A stretch of 64,000 nt of DNA from positions 1 through 64,000 of the forward strand of contig JANWWA010000013.1 in assembly GCA_025056565.1 (NCBI GenBank), read 5' to 3'. Below are positions 30,396-61,405 of this stretch, in pieces. The notes beneath the pieces are model-generated. The model was given only the letters and a program-made list of their open reading frames with translations, was not told where the DNA came from and did not search any database. Every line of letters begins with the position of its first letter. Position 1 is the stretch's first letter. Both the position numbers and the translations under genes were made by a program. This DNA is from Chloroherpetonaceae bacterium (GTDB lineage Bacteria > Bacteroidota > Chlorobiia > Chlorobiales > Thermochlorobacteraceae).

Positions 30396-30665
30396 TTACT
30401 TAATTTGGTCTGAGACAAATGGAATGATAGCTAAGTGGCGCGCCCACTTGATAGACTTGGTCAGTAGGCGCTGCTCTTTTGCAGAAAGTCCTGTAATGCG
30501 GCGAGGAATGATTTTACCCTGCTCGTTGATAAAGCGCCGCAGTTTGCGCTCATCACGGTAGTCGAAGAAAACAACCTGATTTTTAGCTGCGGCTGCAGCA
30601 TTGCGGCTGCGCAGCGCTGAGATGCGCTGCGCAGGACGCACAACACTGGAACTCTTGGCTGCCAT
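30396..30665 (-). CDS. rpsR: 30S ribosomal protein bS18
   Basis: bS18 is a small-subunit platform protein that binds next to bS6. The 89-residue sequence has the core [40 protein letters not shown] and [11 protein letters not shown], which is diagnostic. It is preceded by a basic Ala-rich N-terminal extension. It sits 12 bp before rplI and 17 bp after ssb in the usual cluster order. Confidence 0.97.
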
Positions 30666-30682
30666 TGTTTTTTCTTCCAGTC

Positions 30683-31156
30683 TTAGCGGTTGTTATCGAC
30701 GGTCACTTCACCGTCTCCATTGAGATACTTGTATTCGTAGAGATCTTTGCTACTGACCTGTGAGTCGTCGCTATACTCCTCGACAACGCCAGAATCCTCA
30801 TCGTTGCGGCGACGCTTGTTGAGGAATTGAATTCGCCGTGCCTTGATTTCAACGACAGTGCGGGTGGTGTTGTCCTGCAGTTTCCAAGTGCGGCTTTGAA
30901 GCTCTCCATCGACGAGCACAGCACTGCTCTTGTGCAAGTTATCACGGCACGATTCAGCTAGCTTATTCCAAGCAACCACACCGACGTAGCATACATCTTC
31001 TTGCCACTGGTTATTGCTGTCGCGAAATCTACGATTGCATGCAATCGTAAAGTTTACTACAGGCGTACCCGTTGTCGTTTGCCTAAAAATCGGGTCTTTG
31101 GTGAGGTTGCCTGCAATAACCACGCTATTGATTTCTGGCATTTTCAGGTCTGCCAT
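30683..31156 (-). CDS. ssb: Single-stranded DNA-binding protein
   Basis: This is a 157-residue OB-fold protein that coats ssDNA. The N-terminal fold has [36 protein letters not shown], the strand [20 protein letters not shown] and the [18 protein letters not shown] region. The C-terminal tail is acidic ([13 protein letters not shown]) but ends in GEVTVDNNR rather than the DDxPF-type tip that recruits repair partners in other bacteria. It lies between rpsF and rpsR as usual. Confidence 0.95.
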
Positions 31157-49721: not shown

Positions 49722-50636
49722 ATGAGCATCTTAGTCAGCAGAGAAACCCGACTTGTGGTGCAAGGCATCACTGGTAATGAAGGCACTTTTCATGCCTCGC
49801 AAATGCTGGAGTATGGCAGACAGTTTGGGGTGGATTACCTCGTGGCTGGCGTTACGCCGGGCAAAGGTGGAATGATGTATGCGGGCAATGAAAAAGATCG
49901 ATTCATTCGTGAAGTGCCTGTCTACAACACGGTGCGCGAGGCTGTTGCAGCGCAGAAGGTCAACACTTCTATCATCTATGTGCCTGCACCCTTTGCAGCT
50001 GATGCGATTATGGAAGCTGCTGAAGCGGGCATTGAGCTGATTGTGTGTATCACCGAAGGCATTCCCACTGCCGATATGATGAAAGCATATTGGTTTGTCA
50101 AGGAAAAAGGCGCCGTGTTAGTCGGCCCCAATTGCCCGGGCGTGATTACCCCAGAGGAAGCAAAGGTAGGTATTATGCCCGGTTTTATTTTCAAGAAAGG
50201 TCACATTGGCGTGATTTCTCGCAGCGGCACCCTTACTTACGAATCTGTCTCGCAACTGACGAAACTTGGTTTAGGGCAGTCGACTTGCATCGGCATTGGC
50301 GGCGACCCAATTATCGGGACGCGCTTTATTGATGCGGTTAAGATGTTTGCCAAAGATAGGGACACTGAAGCACTGGTCATTATTGGTGAAATTGGCGGCA
50401 ATGCCGAAGAAGAAGCGGCTGCTTACATCAAGCGTCATTACAAAAAGCCTGTTGTCGGCTTCATTGCAGGACGCACTGCACCGCCCGGCAGACGAATGGG
50501 ACACGCAGGCGCAATTGTCTCAGGTGGGAAAGGCACAGCTGCCGAAAAATTCGAGGCAATGAGAAAAGCTGGTATCCACATTGTGGAAAACCCTGCGGAC
50601 ATCGGTGAGACAATGCGCCATGTCTTGGGTCGCTAA
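49722..50636 (+). CDS. sucD: Succinyl-CoA synthetase alpha subunit
   Basis: SucD is a 304-residue subunit of succinyl-CoA synthetase, which interconverts succinyl-CoA and succinate in the oxidative or reductive TCA cycle. The CoA-binding fold has [52 protein letters not shown] and [15 protein letters not shown], and the phosphohistidine is in [20 protein letters not shown]. The beta subunit sucC is not adjacent. A highly structured sequence begins a few bases after the stop. Confidence 0.96.
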
Positions 50637-50646
50637 TTCCCACTCT

Positions 50647-50733
50647 CGAACAAGAAAAGGAGGCATCGCCCCCTTGTTCGTGCAAGTGCCTCTGGGGGTA
50701 AGGCACGTTGCGAACCAATGCCCCCTTTTCTTG
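50647..50733. ncRNA. Candidate structured RNA element after sucD
   Basis: An outer stem pairs 50651-50666 with 50718-50733 (16 bp, one mismatch). Inside it 50676-50691 pairs with 50701-50715, with a 2-nt bulge at 50681-50682 and a 1-nt bulge at 50707, closing a 9-nt loop. Five G's in that loop (50694-50698) are complementary to CCCCC at 50669-50673, which could form a pseudoknot. A competing hairpin, CGAACAAG (50647-50654) with CTTGTTCG (50673-50680), uses strands of both stems. It may be a riboswitch-like or attenuator element, a terminator of sucD, or a repeat element; the orientation is unknown. Confidence 0.5.
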
Positions 50734-50765
50734 GCTGCGAAGATAGAAACGCACCCTTAGCCTAG

Positions 50766-50795
50766 ACCTAAGAAAAACCTAAGACAAAGCTAAGC
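50766..50795. promoter_or_regulatory. Three direct repeats at 11-bp spacing (Pho-box/OmpR-like operator)
   Basis: ACCTAAGA at 50766, ACCTAAGA at 50777 and AGCTAAGC at 50788 repeat with an exact 11-bp period (8-bp unit plus 3-bp spacer), about one helix turn. A degenerate fourth copy may lie at 50755. This geometry is known for binding sites of PhoB/OmpR-type response regulators, including the cyanobacterial Pho box. It is about 100 bases upstream of the permease gene at 50899. No promoter was assigned with confidence. Confidence 0.5.
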
Positions 50796-50898
50796 AAGTG
50801 AGCGCGCTCTCTCGTTGCTGTGAAACTTCCTTACTCGGAACATCTTTTCAGAGCTTGGCGTTAGGGCAGCGTCCTGCGGGAAAAGGTCGTTGCATAAT

Positions 50899-53475
50899 AT
50901 GATGCTTCTTAAAATTTTCTGGCAAGTCAGTTTGCGCCACGCTCGGAACGAGTGGGGCAAGTTTCTGCTCTCTGTTTTTGGCATTGCTGTTGGCGTTGCA
51001 GTGTTTCTCTCCATTCGCCTCTCGAATCATTCCGCATATAAGTCATTTGAAAGCACAATCGATCAAGTCAATGGCAAAGCCAATGCGCAGGTGCAGTCCA
51101 AAAGTGGCACGGAATTTTCCCAGAGCGTTTTTCGGCAGATTATTGCGCTAAAAGACCGCCTGCCAGCTCTAAAAGCGGCTACGCCTGTTACGGAACAGAC
51201 GACGCGCCCTAAGGGCATTAGCGAAACGCTCATTGTGCTGGGCATAGATATCTTCTCCGACCGTGCCTTCCGCACCTACGAAGACCTTGACGGCGCTGAT
51301 AGCGATACCTTTCTTCGCTTTTTGCTCGAGCCGAATACGCTCATCGTCTCGCAGCAATTTGCTGCACGCAACCACCTAAAAAAGGGCGATACTCTTGAGC
51401 TTTTGGCAAATGGCGTGCTGAAGCCCGTGAAGATTATCGGCGTGTTCAAAACTGATAGACCCACGAGTGAAGTCGCAAACTCCTTCGCCGTGATGGATAT
51501 TGAACAAGCGCAGCGTCTCTTTGGCAAGGAAGGCAAACTTGACAAGATTGACTTAATCATCAGCGAGGCTGAAAGCGCACGCCTCAAAGCCTACCTCTCA
51601 GAAGTCTTGCCGCCTGATGTGGAAGTAGTTTCAGCGAAAAATCGTGGTGAGCAAGTTGCCAAAATGCTGGCGGCTTTTGAAATGAACTTAGCTGCATTGG
51701 CATTCATCAGCCTGCTGGTGGCAATGTTTCTCATCTACAACACGATTACAACCAACGCAATTCGCCGCCGCCGTGAAATCGGTATTTTGCGTGCTTTGGG
51801 GCTTAGCGCATGGGAGGTCTTTTCGCTCTTCCTGCTGGAAGCAGCACTCATCGGCATTCTTGGCAGCGCAGTTGGGCTTGCACTTGGGATTGCGCTGGCT
51901 CACTATACCCTGCAAAGCATTGCTGAGACCATTTCGGCCCTTTACATCTATGTCGCCGCAACGGCTGTGCGCGTCGAACCGTCGCTGCTTCTTGCGGCAT
52001 TCAGCGTCGGGGTGATGGCCTCTATTGTCTCTGCACTTTTTCCTGCGTGGGAAGTCTTCAAAGTGCACCCACGAGAGACCTTTCACATTCAAGCTTTTGA
52101 GCAGCGCACGACACTTAATCTCAAGCGCATTTTAGCCATCAGCCTCGTGCTTCTGATGATGGGCATTGTGCTTGCTCAGTTGCCGAGCGTAGGTGGCAAA
52201 CCCATTTTTGGCTATGCATCGGCTATTTGTGCTATTCTCGGCTTTGCGCTGCTTTCACCAGAGTTTATTGCACTATCGCGCCCGTTCTTTGAGCGCATAG
52301 CGTATCGCATTTTCGGCATTGAAGGCAAGCTGGCTGCCAGTAACCTTGCCGACTCATTGAACCGTGCGGCTACTGCAGTGAGCGCATTGATGGTTGCAGT
52401 GGCGATGCTTATCGGGATTAGCGTGATGGTCGGCAGTTTTCGCCAAACAGTGATTTACTGGGTGGAGCAAACACTGAAAGCCGATGTGTTCATTGCGCCT
52501 GCTGAGCGATTTGGCGTTGGGGCTCAGGCTCCGATTTCACGGGAGGTTTTAGAATATGTGGCAGCGCTTCCTGAAACCAAAGCAGTTGACGCTTTCTCTT
52601 CCCGAGCGATTCGACTCAATGGCGAACCCACTGTGCTTTGTGCGCCAAACTTTGAGACCGTCCTGAAGTGCACGCAACTGCTTTTTCGCAAGGGCGACGG
52701 CAAAGCAATTTTGAAGGAAGTGGTTGAAAACGAGCATTCGCTTGTGGTTACAGAGGTCTTCTCCAACCGATTTGGATACAAGGAAGGCGACTCGCTTACG
52801 CTGGTTTCACCTACGGGAGTGCATAAGTTTCGCATCGCTGGTGTCTATTACGACTATGCGTCTGATAGGGGGCTAATTGCCTTGCATCGCCCGCATTTTG
52901 AAAAATTCTGGCGCGATGAAAAAATCAATAGCATCGGCGTCTACCTGCATAACCCCTCGCAGGCTGAGCGTATTGTGCAGCGCATTCGTGAAGCGTTTGC
53001 AGAGCGTGCGCCAATTTTGGTCTACTCCAACTCGGGTCTGCGCGCCCGTGTGCTAAATGTCTTTGACCAAACTTTCGCTATCACCTACGCCCTGCAATTT
53101 GTGGCCATGGCTGTAGCCGCAATGGGGGTGATTAGTGCGCTAACCGCTATCATTTTTGAGCGGCGGCGAGAAATCGGGGTTTTGCGTTCCATTGGTGCCA
53201 GCGCTGAGCAAGTGCGCAACATCACCTTGATAGAAGCCTTCCTGATGGGAATTTTGGCATCGGCGTTGGGAATTGCTTGTGGGTTTGTGCTGGCGCTGAT
53301 TTTGATTTACGTCATCAACTTGCAATCGTTTGGCTGGACGATTCAAGTGCATTTGCCTACCAATACAATTCTTGCCGCTACGGCACTGGTTATATGCACC
53401 GCGCTGCTTTCGGGCTGGATTCCTGCGCGCTATGCTATGCGTCTTGCGATTGCTGAACAAGTGCGCTTCGAGTGA
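50899..53475 (+). CDS. FtsX-like ABC transporter permease (two FtsX domains)
   Basis: This is an 858-residue inner-membrane permease. An N-terminal helix (WGKFLLSVFGIAVGVAVFLS) is followed by a MacB-type periplasmic domain, a first FtsX domain near residues 260-385 (FLIYNTITTNAIRRRREIGI, LRALGLSAWEVFSLFLLEAA), middle helices, a second periplasmic domain and a C-terminal FtsX domain (IIFERRREIGVLRSIGASAE). This is the ten-helix layout of YbbP-like permeases that export lipids or lipoprotein-related substrates with a LolD-type ATPase. That ATPase is not in the window. The ATG at 50899 is preferred over a TTG three codons earlier. It overlaps the convergent Uma2 gene by 46 bp. Confidence 0.9.
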   Translation: MMLLKIFWQVSLRHARNEWGKFLLSVFGIAVGVAVFLSIRLSNHSAYKSFESTIDQVNGKANAQVQSKSGTEFSQSVFRQIIALKDRLPALKAATPVTEQTTRPKGISETLIVLGIDIFSDRAFRTYEDLDGADSDTFLRFLLEPNTLIVSQQFAARNHLKKGDTLELLANGVLKPVKIIGVFKTDRPTSEVANSFAVMDIEQAQRLFGKEGKLDKIDLIISEAESARLKAYLSEVLPPDVEVVSAKNRGEQVAKMLAAFEMNLAALAFISLLVAMFLIYNTITTNAIRRRREIGILRALGLSAWEVFSLFLLEAALIGILGSAVGLALGIALAHYTLQSIAETISALYIYVAATAVRVEPSLLLAAFSVGVMASIVSALFPAWEVFKVHPRETFHIQAFEQRTTLNLKRILAISLVLLMMGIVLAQLPSVGGKPIFGYASAICAILGFALLSPEFIALSRPFFERIAYRIFGIEGKLAASNLADSLNRAATAVSALMVAVAMLIGISVMVGSFRQTVIYWVEQTLKADVFIAPAERFGVGAQAPISREVLEYVAALPETKAVDAFSSRAIRLNGEPTVLCAPNFETVLKCTQLLFRKGDGKAILKEVVENEHSLVVTEVFSNRFGYKEGDSLTLVSPTGVHKFRIAGVYYDYASDRGLIALHRPHFEKFWRDEKINSIGVYLHNPSQAERIVQRIREAFAERAPILVYSNSGLRARVLNVFDQTFAITYALQFVAMAVAAMGVISALTAIIFERRREIGVLRSIGASAEQVRNITLIEAFLMGILASALGIACGFVLALILIYVINLQSFGWTIQVHLPTNTILAATALVICTALLSGWIPARYAMRLAIAEQVRFE

Positions 53476-58123: not shown

Positions 58124-61100
58124 TTAGTTGAAAGTGTAGCGAATGCTAAACTGTGCTGACCAGAGGTCACTGATGCTGGCTGTGCGGGTGAAAGACTCGC
58201 GCAGCAGTTCAGGACCAGTGGGCGTATTCACGAACCGCATTCTATACACTGGCACGCCATCTGGATCTACTCTCACGAAGTTAAGTGGGAAAGGCTCCAC
58301 ACGCTGCCAGCCGACCCCCCATTCGCTGTTGAGCAAGTTACCCACATTGAAGATGTCTAGACGCAGCTGCAGATTGTTGCGCTTACCTGCAACTTCAAGA
58401 TAGAAGTCCTGAATGATGTTGAGGTCTGCGCGGAAGACCCATGGGAAAAGTGCACCATTGCGTTCCGCGTACTGGCCGCGGCGGGTCCTTAGGTACTCGT
58501 CTTGGTCGATAAAGGCATCAAACGCGCGCTGCTGCTCTTCTACCGTGAAGGTGCGTCCTGCTTGTGTGAATTGCTCAAAGCGCAAGTCACTTGCACGGTT
58601 TGGCACGAAGATAAGGTCGTTGCCGACAACCCCATCTTGGTTCATATCACCGCTGTAGACATAGCTGAAGCGACCTTGTGGTGCCCCTGACCAGAAGAGT
58701 GAGATCGTTGTTGCTCCAAAACCGTAGTCAAAGCGGTAGCTGCCGCTTGCAATGACGCGGTGTGGCACCGCAGCCGATGAAAAGCCCAGCTCAGGCTTAT
58801 TCGGATTGTCTGCCACAGGATTGCCTGTCCAAGAGCCTAACGCAATAGAACCCGGATTGTTGTTGTTGCGTGCATCGGTGTAGGTATAGGCAAGAAGGGC
58901 GAACCAGTTATCGCCAAATGCCTTTTGCAACTGTGCTGTGAGCGACAGAGCATAGTCCTCGCCCGAGTTTTGCAGCACCACATTGCTGGTTACATTCGCA
59001 TTCAAGCGGTTGGCATTTCCAGCCGTGCCATCATAGCGCAAGCGTTGGTCAGGACCAGAGAAGCGGCGCGTTGCAGGACGCAGGTTAGCATTGATGTAAG
59101 AAATGCCCGCAAGTGTCTTGGTGTAAATGCCATCAAAGGTTGCCACAATACCCAGCGGCAGTTGGTAGTCAATCCCGAGATTGGTGCGCCACACTTGCGG
59201 GAAGCGGAAATTCGGGTCAGTGGTTGCCAGCTCAATTGAAGTCGGCAGTTGTGGGTTTGCTGGGCGATACGCATTTGGGTCGGGGTTAAATGGGCGATTG
59301 CGCGTGTTGTTCAGTTCTTCAAAACCTGTTAGCACGCCGTTGTTACCCACTTGGTTGGAAATCCACACGAAGGCTGGCTGCCCAGTAAAGATGCCCGTTC
59401 CACCACGTACTTGCAAGCTGTTGTCTTCCAATACATTCCAGTTGAAGCCCAAGCGTGGCGAAAAGAGCGGTGTTGCACGTGGCAAGCGTTCTGTGCGCGA
59501 TTCAATGCGGTTTCCATCGCCATCACGGAACTCCAGCGTGGGCACGAGTGGATTCTCGTATGCGGTATTTTCAAAGAAGGGGATATCGACCCGCACACCT
59601 GCCGTGATGCGCAGATTGTTCAGCACCTGCCACTCATCTTGCACATAAATGCCCGGATTCCAAGCACGCGTGGGTTGCACAGGTTCAGCGCCGCCGGGCA
59701 GTGCCGAATAGCGATATTGGAAGCGACGCAGCGTAACAGGTGAGGTCGTGCGGTTCGGGTTACGCAGGTAATCATTTGCGTCGGTGTACCAATCCGCCAG
59801 CGAGTTATACACATACACGCTCTGCGAGCCAGGGAAGAACACATTGCGGAAGCTGTAATAGACTAAGTTCAAACCTGCCGTAATCGTATGCGCGCCAGCG
59901 TAGTAGCTGAAGTTATCTTGAAATTGCCAAGTGGTATAGCTTAGCTGGTTGTTGGGCGTAAATGGTTCAAAGCCGAATGAGATAAGCGTCGTCCCACCCT
60001 CCTGAATTTCTACAAGCGGGAAGAGCGTACCGCGAGAGCCGCGGTCTTCATTCTGGTACGTAAAGCCCGCGATGATTTGGTTGGAAAACTTACCGCCAAA
60101 AGTGGAGTTCAGCTCTGCAATAACGGACTGGATGCGGTCAAATTGAATGTAGTTGGAGTTCTGGTAACTTAGCGCATTGGTGCCTACGCGGTTACCAAAG
60201 CCCAGCGATGCGCTATTGCTGATATTCACATCTTGACGAGCGTCCAGCGCATTGTATCGAAGGCTGAGCTTATTGTTTTCATCAATGTTGTAGTTGAGCT
60301 TCAGCAGCCAATTGAGCGAGCTGGGCCGTTGCTGTGTGTAGTCTTGGAACGGTCCTGTTTCATAGCGGAAATTTTCGCGCAGGAATCGGCTAAGCGAGTC
60401 CATCTGCCCGAAGGTTGGGCGCGAGATATTGCCGCCTTGCACTTCACCGGGCTGCCTTGGACGCAGCGTAAAGGGCGTCGAGTTTTGTTCGGTTTCTACA
60501 GCTGCAAAGAAGAAGAGCTTGTCTTGAATGATGGGCCCGCTGAAGCGAAATCCGCCCTGCAGGTTGCTAAAATCGTTGGTTGCGCCCGAGACATCGACGC
60601 CTGCAGCTTTTCTGCCTAGCAGGGTTTGGTTACGCAGGTTGAAAAAGGCTGAGCCTTGAAATTCATTGTTGCCGCTGCGCGTAACAAGGTTAATACCTGC
60701 TCCGACAAACAGTCCTTGCCGCACATCGTAAGGTGCAAGCGACACTGCAACTTCTTCAACCGCCTCTAAGCTAATTGGCGCTACATTTGCGCGGCCGCCT
60801 GGCAGATCTGCCAAACCAAAACTATTGTTTAGGTAGGAGCCATCAACGGTGATGTTATTCAGGCGTCCGTCTTGACCCGCAAACGAGTTTCCGTTGGCTT
60901 GGGGCGTCAGACGCGTAAAGTCCGTAAAGTTGCGACGAATGGTCGGTAGCGTGGTAATCGCTTCCTTCGGCACACTGGTTACTGCACCTGTGCGGTCTGG
61001 GCTAATTGCCGCACTGCGTGCCGCAGTTACGGTTACTTCTTGTGTGGTCGCGGCTTCTTCAGCCAGCTTCACGCTTATATTGCCTGCAGAGCCCAAGCTC

Positions 61101-61405
61101 AGGTAGACATCTTCTACGGTCTGCGACTTATAGCCGACATAGCTCACTACGATTCGGTATGGACCGCCTACTCGCATACCCGGAATCGTGTAGCGCCCAT
61201 CGGCTTGCGTAATTGCGCCGTAGCGTGTGCCCGATGGCAAGTGAGTCGCCACCACTGTTGCTCCTACCAGCGGTTCGCCTTTCGTATCCGTAACAAGCCC
61301 GATAATCGACGAGGTCGTTACACCTTGTGCCCATACACTACTCTGGAGCAACATGAATATTATGAGCGTCGCTAATGAAAGCGCAGTCAGGTATCTTGGC
61401 TTCAT
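58124..61405 (-). CDS. Oar-like TonB-dependent outer-membrane receptor
   Basis: This is a 1093-residue outer-membrane protein. A signal peptide (MKPRYLTALSLATLIIFMLLQSSVWAQ) leads to a carboxypeptidase-regulatory-like domain (IIGLVTDTKGEPLVGATVVA ... YTIPGMRVGGPYRIVVSYVG). A plug domain (ITTLPTIRRNFTDFTRLTPQ) and a long beta-barrel follow, ending WSAQFSIRYTFN. The LPGGRANVAPISLEAVEEVA and RSGNNEFQGSAFFNLRNQTL stretches are typical of the Oar (OmpA-related) receptor group of this phylum. The substrate is unknown. It is a single gene ended by a terminator at 58046-58079. Confidence 0.92.
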   Translation of the reverse strand: MKPRYLTALSLATLIIFMLLQSSVWAQGVTTSSIIGLVTDTKGEPLVGATVVATHLPSGTRYGAITQADGRYTIPGMRVGGPYRIVVSYVGYKSQTVEDVYLSLGSAGNISVKLAEEAATTQEVTVTAARSAAISPDRTGAVTSVPKEAITTLPTIRRNFTDFTRLTPQANGNSFAGQDGRLNNITVDGSYLNNSFGLADLPGGRANVAPISLEAVEEVAVSLAPYDVRQGLFVGAGINLVTRSGNNEFQGSAFFNLRNQTLLGRKAAGVDVSGATNDFSNLQGGFRFSGPIIQDKLFFFAAVETEQNSTPFTLRPRQPGEVQGGNISRPTFGQMDSLSRFLRENFRYETGPFQDYTQQRPSSLNWLLKLNYNIDENNKLSLRYNALDARQDVNISNSASLGFGNRVGTNALSYQNSNYIQFDRIQSVIAELNSTFGGKFSNQIIAGFTYQNEDRGSRGTLFPLVEIQEGGTTLISFGFEPFTPNNQLSYTTWQFQDNFSYYAGAHTITAGLNLVYYSFRNVFFPGSQSVYVYNSLADWYTDANDYLRNPNRTTSPVTLRRFQYRYSALPGGAEPVQPTRAWNPGIYVQDEWQVLNNLRITAGVRVDIPFFENTAYENPLVPTLEFRDGDGNRIESRTERLPRATPLFSPRLGFNWNVLEDNSLQVRGGTGIFTGQPAFVWISNQVGNNGVLTGFEELNNTRNRPFNPDPNAYRPANPQLPTSIELATTDPNFRFPQVWRTNLGIDYQLPLGIVATFDGIYTKTLAGISYINANLRPATRRFSGPDQRLRYDGTAGNANRLNANVTSNVVLQNSGEDYALSLTAQLQKAFGDNWFALLAYTYTDARNNNNPGSIALGSWTGNPVADNPNKPELGFSSAAVPHRVIASGSYRFDYGFGATTISLFWSGAPQGRFSYVYSGDMNQDGVVGNDLIFVPNRASDLRFEQFTQAGRTFTVEEQQRAFDAFIDQDEYLRTRRGQYAERNGALFPWVFRADLNIIQDFYLEVAGKRNNLQLRLDIFNVGNLLNSEWGVGWQRVEPFPLNFVRVDPDGVPVYRMRFVNTPTGPELLRESFTRTASISDLWSAQFSIRYTFN

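Follow-up and report, generated by a model that had tools for sequence, protein, structure and literature searches.

In the analysed window, a stretch of 64,000 nucleotides from a Chloroherpetonaceae genome, a long inverted repeat lies between sucD and an FtsX-type permease gene, which raises the question of whether this element acts on a neighbouring transcript or encodes an RNA of its own. The initial annotation had described a bulged hairpin on the plus strand, consisting of an outer stem, an inner stem with a GGGGG loop (50694–50698) and a CCCCC flank (50669–50673), together with a competing second hairpin, and had favoured a switch. The stems, the loop and the flank are present in the sequence, the outer arms being 16 nt long and 94% complementary. 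Nevertheless, our analysis leads us to consider it likely that the element is the gene for a small regulatory RNA, which would be read from the minus strand and have its own promoter and terminator (Table 1). This small RNA is new as a family and ordinary as a kind.

Table 1. Predicted features of the element between sucD and the FtsX-type permease gene (window positions)
Feature	Position	Strand	Basis and remarks
Proposed small RNA gene, ~85 nt	50648–50735	minus	between promoter element and terminator tail; both ends estimated
5' arm of outer stem	50718–50733	minus	inverted repeat, 94%; 7/20 combined-stem pairs changed on both sides, three species
3' arm of outer stem, doubling as 3' half of the terminator	50651–50666	minus	inverted repeat, covariation, terminator match
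Core hairpin GUGCCU-UACCCCCAG-AGGCAC with C-rich loop	50686–50706	minus	near invariant in four genomes; strong covariance-model matches confined to these
Conserved UUGC, 3' flank of core hairpin	50682–50685	minus	YUGC in 4/4 copies
Intrinsic terminator AAGGGGGC-GAU-GCCUCCUU, then UUCUUGUU	50657–50675 (alternative end 50656)	minus	sole terminator-like stem in 50600–50920
Promoter element TATCTTCG (TAnnTTYG)	50738–50745	minus	minus strand only within the gap, three species
Three direct repeats (C/A)TTAG(G/C), 11 bp apart, candidate activator site	50767–50794	minus	exact spacing, three species

The window's own genome (G000; 2.92 Mb, 75 contigs), which harbours the element as a single copy, was compared with two genomes of the same genus, Thermochlorobacter (G001, corresponding to Candidatus Thermochlorobacter aerophilum OS, and G002), and with the MAG GBChlB (G003) from another genus of the family. 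In contrast to the initial annotation, which had folded the plus strand, we assign the element to the minus strand because the promoter element, the terminator and the wobble pairs all point there. The minus-strand fold of the 91-nt element reached −47.0 kcal/mol (z-score −4.3; 0/200 shuffles as good), compared to −37.3 kcal/mol (z-score −2.1) for the plus strand, and none of the 5,114 91-nt stretches taken in 25-base steps on both strands across the whole window had an equally low energy. The second strongest fold of the window, at 30551–30690, was found on both strands and falls within or next to a short reading frame on the minus strand.

Among trimmed copies, the energy of the minus strand was the lower one in each of the four, and its z-score was the stronger in all but G002, where the minimum-energy fold differs and the minus-strand z-score is no better than that of the plus strand. 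On the minus strand, the A-C mismatch seen in the outer stem of the plus strand becomes a G-U pair. Visual inspection revealed further such pairs in GBChlB (two beside the core stem) and in G002 (one at the base of the terminator), and no wobble pairs favouring the plus strand in the copies compared.

All three Thermochlorobacter genomes compared show the same arrangement at the sucD/FtsX locus, and, of 30 sucD loci read, only these three have sucD followed by this FtsX gene. Across the gap, the three species share 66–72% overall identity, while the core is nearly invariant in all four of these hot-spring green bacteria. The fourth copy, in GBChlB, is situated at another locus, where (L110, 1894–2646) it lies ahead of a PAS-domain-like frame in the same direction and not beside sucD, and it retains the core (GYGCCUURCCCCCASAGGCRCYUGC) along with the promoter element and a terminator. 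Compensatory changes in the relatives support the hairpin: the sequence of the outer stem varies, all 60 cells of the comparison are paired, and the changes on both sides (Table 1) were matched by 0/500 shuffles, with slid controls scoring far lower. We regard this covariation as supportive, not conclusive, since the set comprised three sequences that were aligned by hand, with bulges and spacers removed. Two MAFFT alignments were unreliable outside the core, and pairing was not judged from them.

A covariance model of the core yielded four strong matches (48.6–55.5 bits) across 98 genomes of the order, followed by a match of 22.6 bits that we took as noise. As the four copies went into the model, the informative result is not how high they score but how far the next match lies below them. 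When 198 genomes of the phylum were searched with the core pattern, allowing one mismatch, exact matches were obtained in G000 and G003 only, and the other matches were about as frequent as those of the reversed control. Within genome collections, the 25-nt core retrieved two records, T. aerophilum OS and GBChlB. Rfam 15 contributed no family match at gathering score in the window, and the matches at loose thresholds were at chance level. This includes the structured RNA motifs Chlorobi-1 (RF01696) and Chlorobi-RRM (RF01697) of Chlorobi (PMC2864571), named for checking in the initial annotation, which gave no match with E values of up to 10 allowed in the window and of up to 5 for the four copies. 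At the level of sequence comparison, conservation, pairing, strand signals and single-copy occurrence are supported.

The motif TAnnTTTG is the −7 promoter element of Bacteroidetes and is named in papers on that phylum. Inside the sucD/FtsX gap, TAnnTTY(G/A) occurs on the minus strand only, near the hairpin, in all three species, with two overlapping candidates in G001. At the other locus in GBChlB, TACATTTG precedes the copy of the element (listed as TACATTTGCG ahead of the core); by sequence, a TAnnTTYG-type candidate promoter element is present on the minus strand in 4/4 copies. Between the crude gene calls of the window, TAnnTTYGC was counted 11 times versus 2.0 ± 1.4 expected from mononucleotide shuffles, an enrichment that makes it probable that promoter elements of the Bacteroidetes type are in use in this Chlorobiota lineage.

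The third TTAGG repeat of the candidate activator site is separated from the promoter TA by 27 nt in all three species. OmpR/PhoB-type regulators typically bind repeats that are spaced by one helical turn. Outside the locus, no further site with at most one mismatch was found in the three genomes; a single site with two mismatches, before a TonB-receptor-like gene in G000 only, is at chance level. The repeats could also serve the divergent FtsX gene. On the plus strand, a motif GGAAC-N17-YGTTARG (50837–50865) is located 32–33 nt before the likely FtsX start codon, with the spacing kept in three species, and looks like an ECF-sigma promoter for the permease. As one match with up to one mismatch is fairly often expected by chance in the window, it is the conservation of the motif, not its rarity, that leads to this reading.

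At the other end of the proposed gene, the terminator also sheds light on the second hairpin of the initial annotation. Its pairing stands as a perfect 8-bp match between CGAACAAG (50647–50654) and CTTGTTCG (50673–50680), whereas its role changes, as on the minus strand it forms the base of the terminator stem. A terminator-like hairpin is present in GBChlB and weak in G001. The intrinsic-terminator match on the minus strand, the T runs that end the arms on both strands and the position directly behind sucD in three species would also fit a long hairpin that simply ends the sucD transcript, and perhaps minus-strand ones, with no function as a free RNA. We consider this unlikely: a terminator does not need the sequence of loop and core stem, which is conserved here, GBChlB has the core at a place other than sucD, and the plus strand between 50600 and 50920 yielded no terminator-like site.

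A short coding or leader-peptide RNA appears very unlikely. One frame of the core would read ALPP(E/Q)A(L/P)A, two core changes are silent in this frame, and ATG-started short frames exist in G002 and GBChlB. However, no in-frame ATG, GTG or TTG precedes the core in G000 and G001, the C-terminal parts are entirely different, and the core changes are equally explained by conserved pairing. The cis-acting switch or attenuator preferred at first is highly improbable, even if G000 could adopt either of two mutually exclusive structures and the PAS-domain-like frame in GBChlB lies downstream in sense, so that such control is conceivable there. In the window, the next crude gene call on the minus strand follows only 5.6 kb beyond the element; with no sense gene behind it, a ligand switch is unlikely here, and the product would likely be a free RNA of about 85 nt. 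Moreover, the downstream neighbour in GBChlB is unlike that of the three other genomes, and the alternative outer stem is missing there. A palindromic repeat or the remnant of a mobile element, suggested by the long intergenic inverted repeat and the different place in GBChlB, can practically be dismissed given one copy per genome, the same locus in three species and the absence of exact matches to the 25-nt core in a viral contig collection.

For the small regulatory RNA, we infer transcription, exact ends, refolding and target pairing from sequence. Transcription would start just downstream of TATCTTCG (50745–50738), near position 50735, perhaps with an activator bound at the three TTAGG repeats, and would end at the G-rich terminator (50675–50657), placing the end of the RNA near 50650. 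The C-loop hairpin would fold first and the terminator second; once free, the molecule may rearrange into a single long rod through pairing of its 5' arm with the 3' arm of the terminator, which would protect both RNA ends. Such an exchange between terminator hairpin and long rod during transcription is plausible because the competing hairpin makes up the lower part of the terminator stem. For G000 and G001, the long rod is the optimal fold. The GBChlB copy has neither outer stem nor rod, and therefore the C-loop hairpin and the terminator alone are common to all four copies. The C5:G5 pseudoknot proposed in the initial annotation is possible; this pairing could form in G000, G002 and GBChlB (in another register), with only 3 bp in G001.

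Most likely, the candidate small RNA is confined to one lineage, and would act by base pairing of its C5 loop, with ACCCCCA as the exposed loop sequence, to G-rich segments in other RNAs. Exact complements of the loop, the only type of target considered, were few, and none was a convincing target. The best case, a complement of 12 nt within a TonB-receptor gene of G001, was rejected because it is not conserved in the G000 orthologue. The window contains a large TonB-receptor-like gene (58124–61405, minus strand) with orthologues in G001, G002 and G003 and 80% identity to that of G001 over the part compared. Hfq was not found in the four genomes, while the control search worked, and Shine-Dalgarno-like sites at the crude gene starts were few.

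Several known small RNAs offer points of comparison. Yfr1 of cyanobacteria (54–69 nt) combines an ultraconserved C-rich motif with a 3' terminator hairpin (PMC2190773) and resembles the proposed RNA as a short molecule with a conserved C-rich motif and a terminator at its 3' end; we view it as an analogue that works alike, not as a relative. In Yfr1, ACUCCUCACAC is unpaired between two hairpins (PMC2190773), whereas here ACCCCCA lies in a hairpin loop and the Yfr1 motif ACUCCUCACAC is absent from the element. The rhizobial SmelA075/SmelA099 RNAs carry CCUCCUCCC loops with proposed pairing to G-rich ribosome-binding sites (PMC3927594) and likewise present a conserved C-rich hairpin loop on variable stems. 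These, too, are analogues and not relatives, differing by three or four hairpins with CCUCCUCCC compared to one hairpin with CUUACCCCCA, and by their unrelated hosts. In Bacteroides, where no Hfq or ProQ homologue is known, GibS is a largely unstructured RNA of 145 nt with a single-stranded 5' seed (PMC7366714). GibS and other Bacteroides small RNAs are intergenic, with their own promoter and a probable terminator, as predicted for the element described here, in whose genomes Hfq was likewise not found.

In the open-licence literature, we found no description of a small regulatory RNA from this bacterial group. Taking the proposal further, the element could represent an Hfq-free small RNA family of Thermochlorobacter and close relatives, a group with few Shine-Dalgarno sites, with a dedicated activator at the 11-bp repeats and a C5 loop to which access is controlled by competition between two G-rich arms, one at the 5' end and one in the terminator; this extended picture is speculative and rather doubtful in its entirety. 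If transcribed, the element would provide a defined starting point for studying RNA regulation in an aerobic photoheterotroph from a lineage without detectable Hfq.
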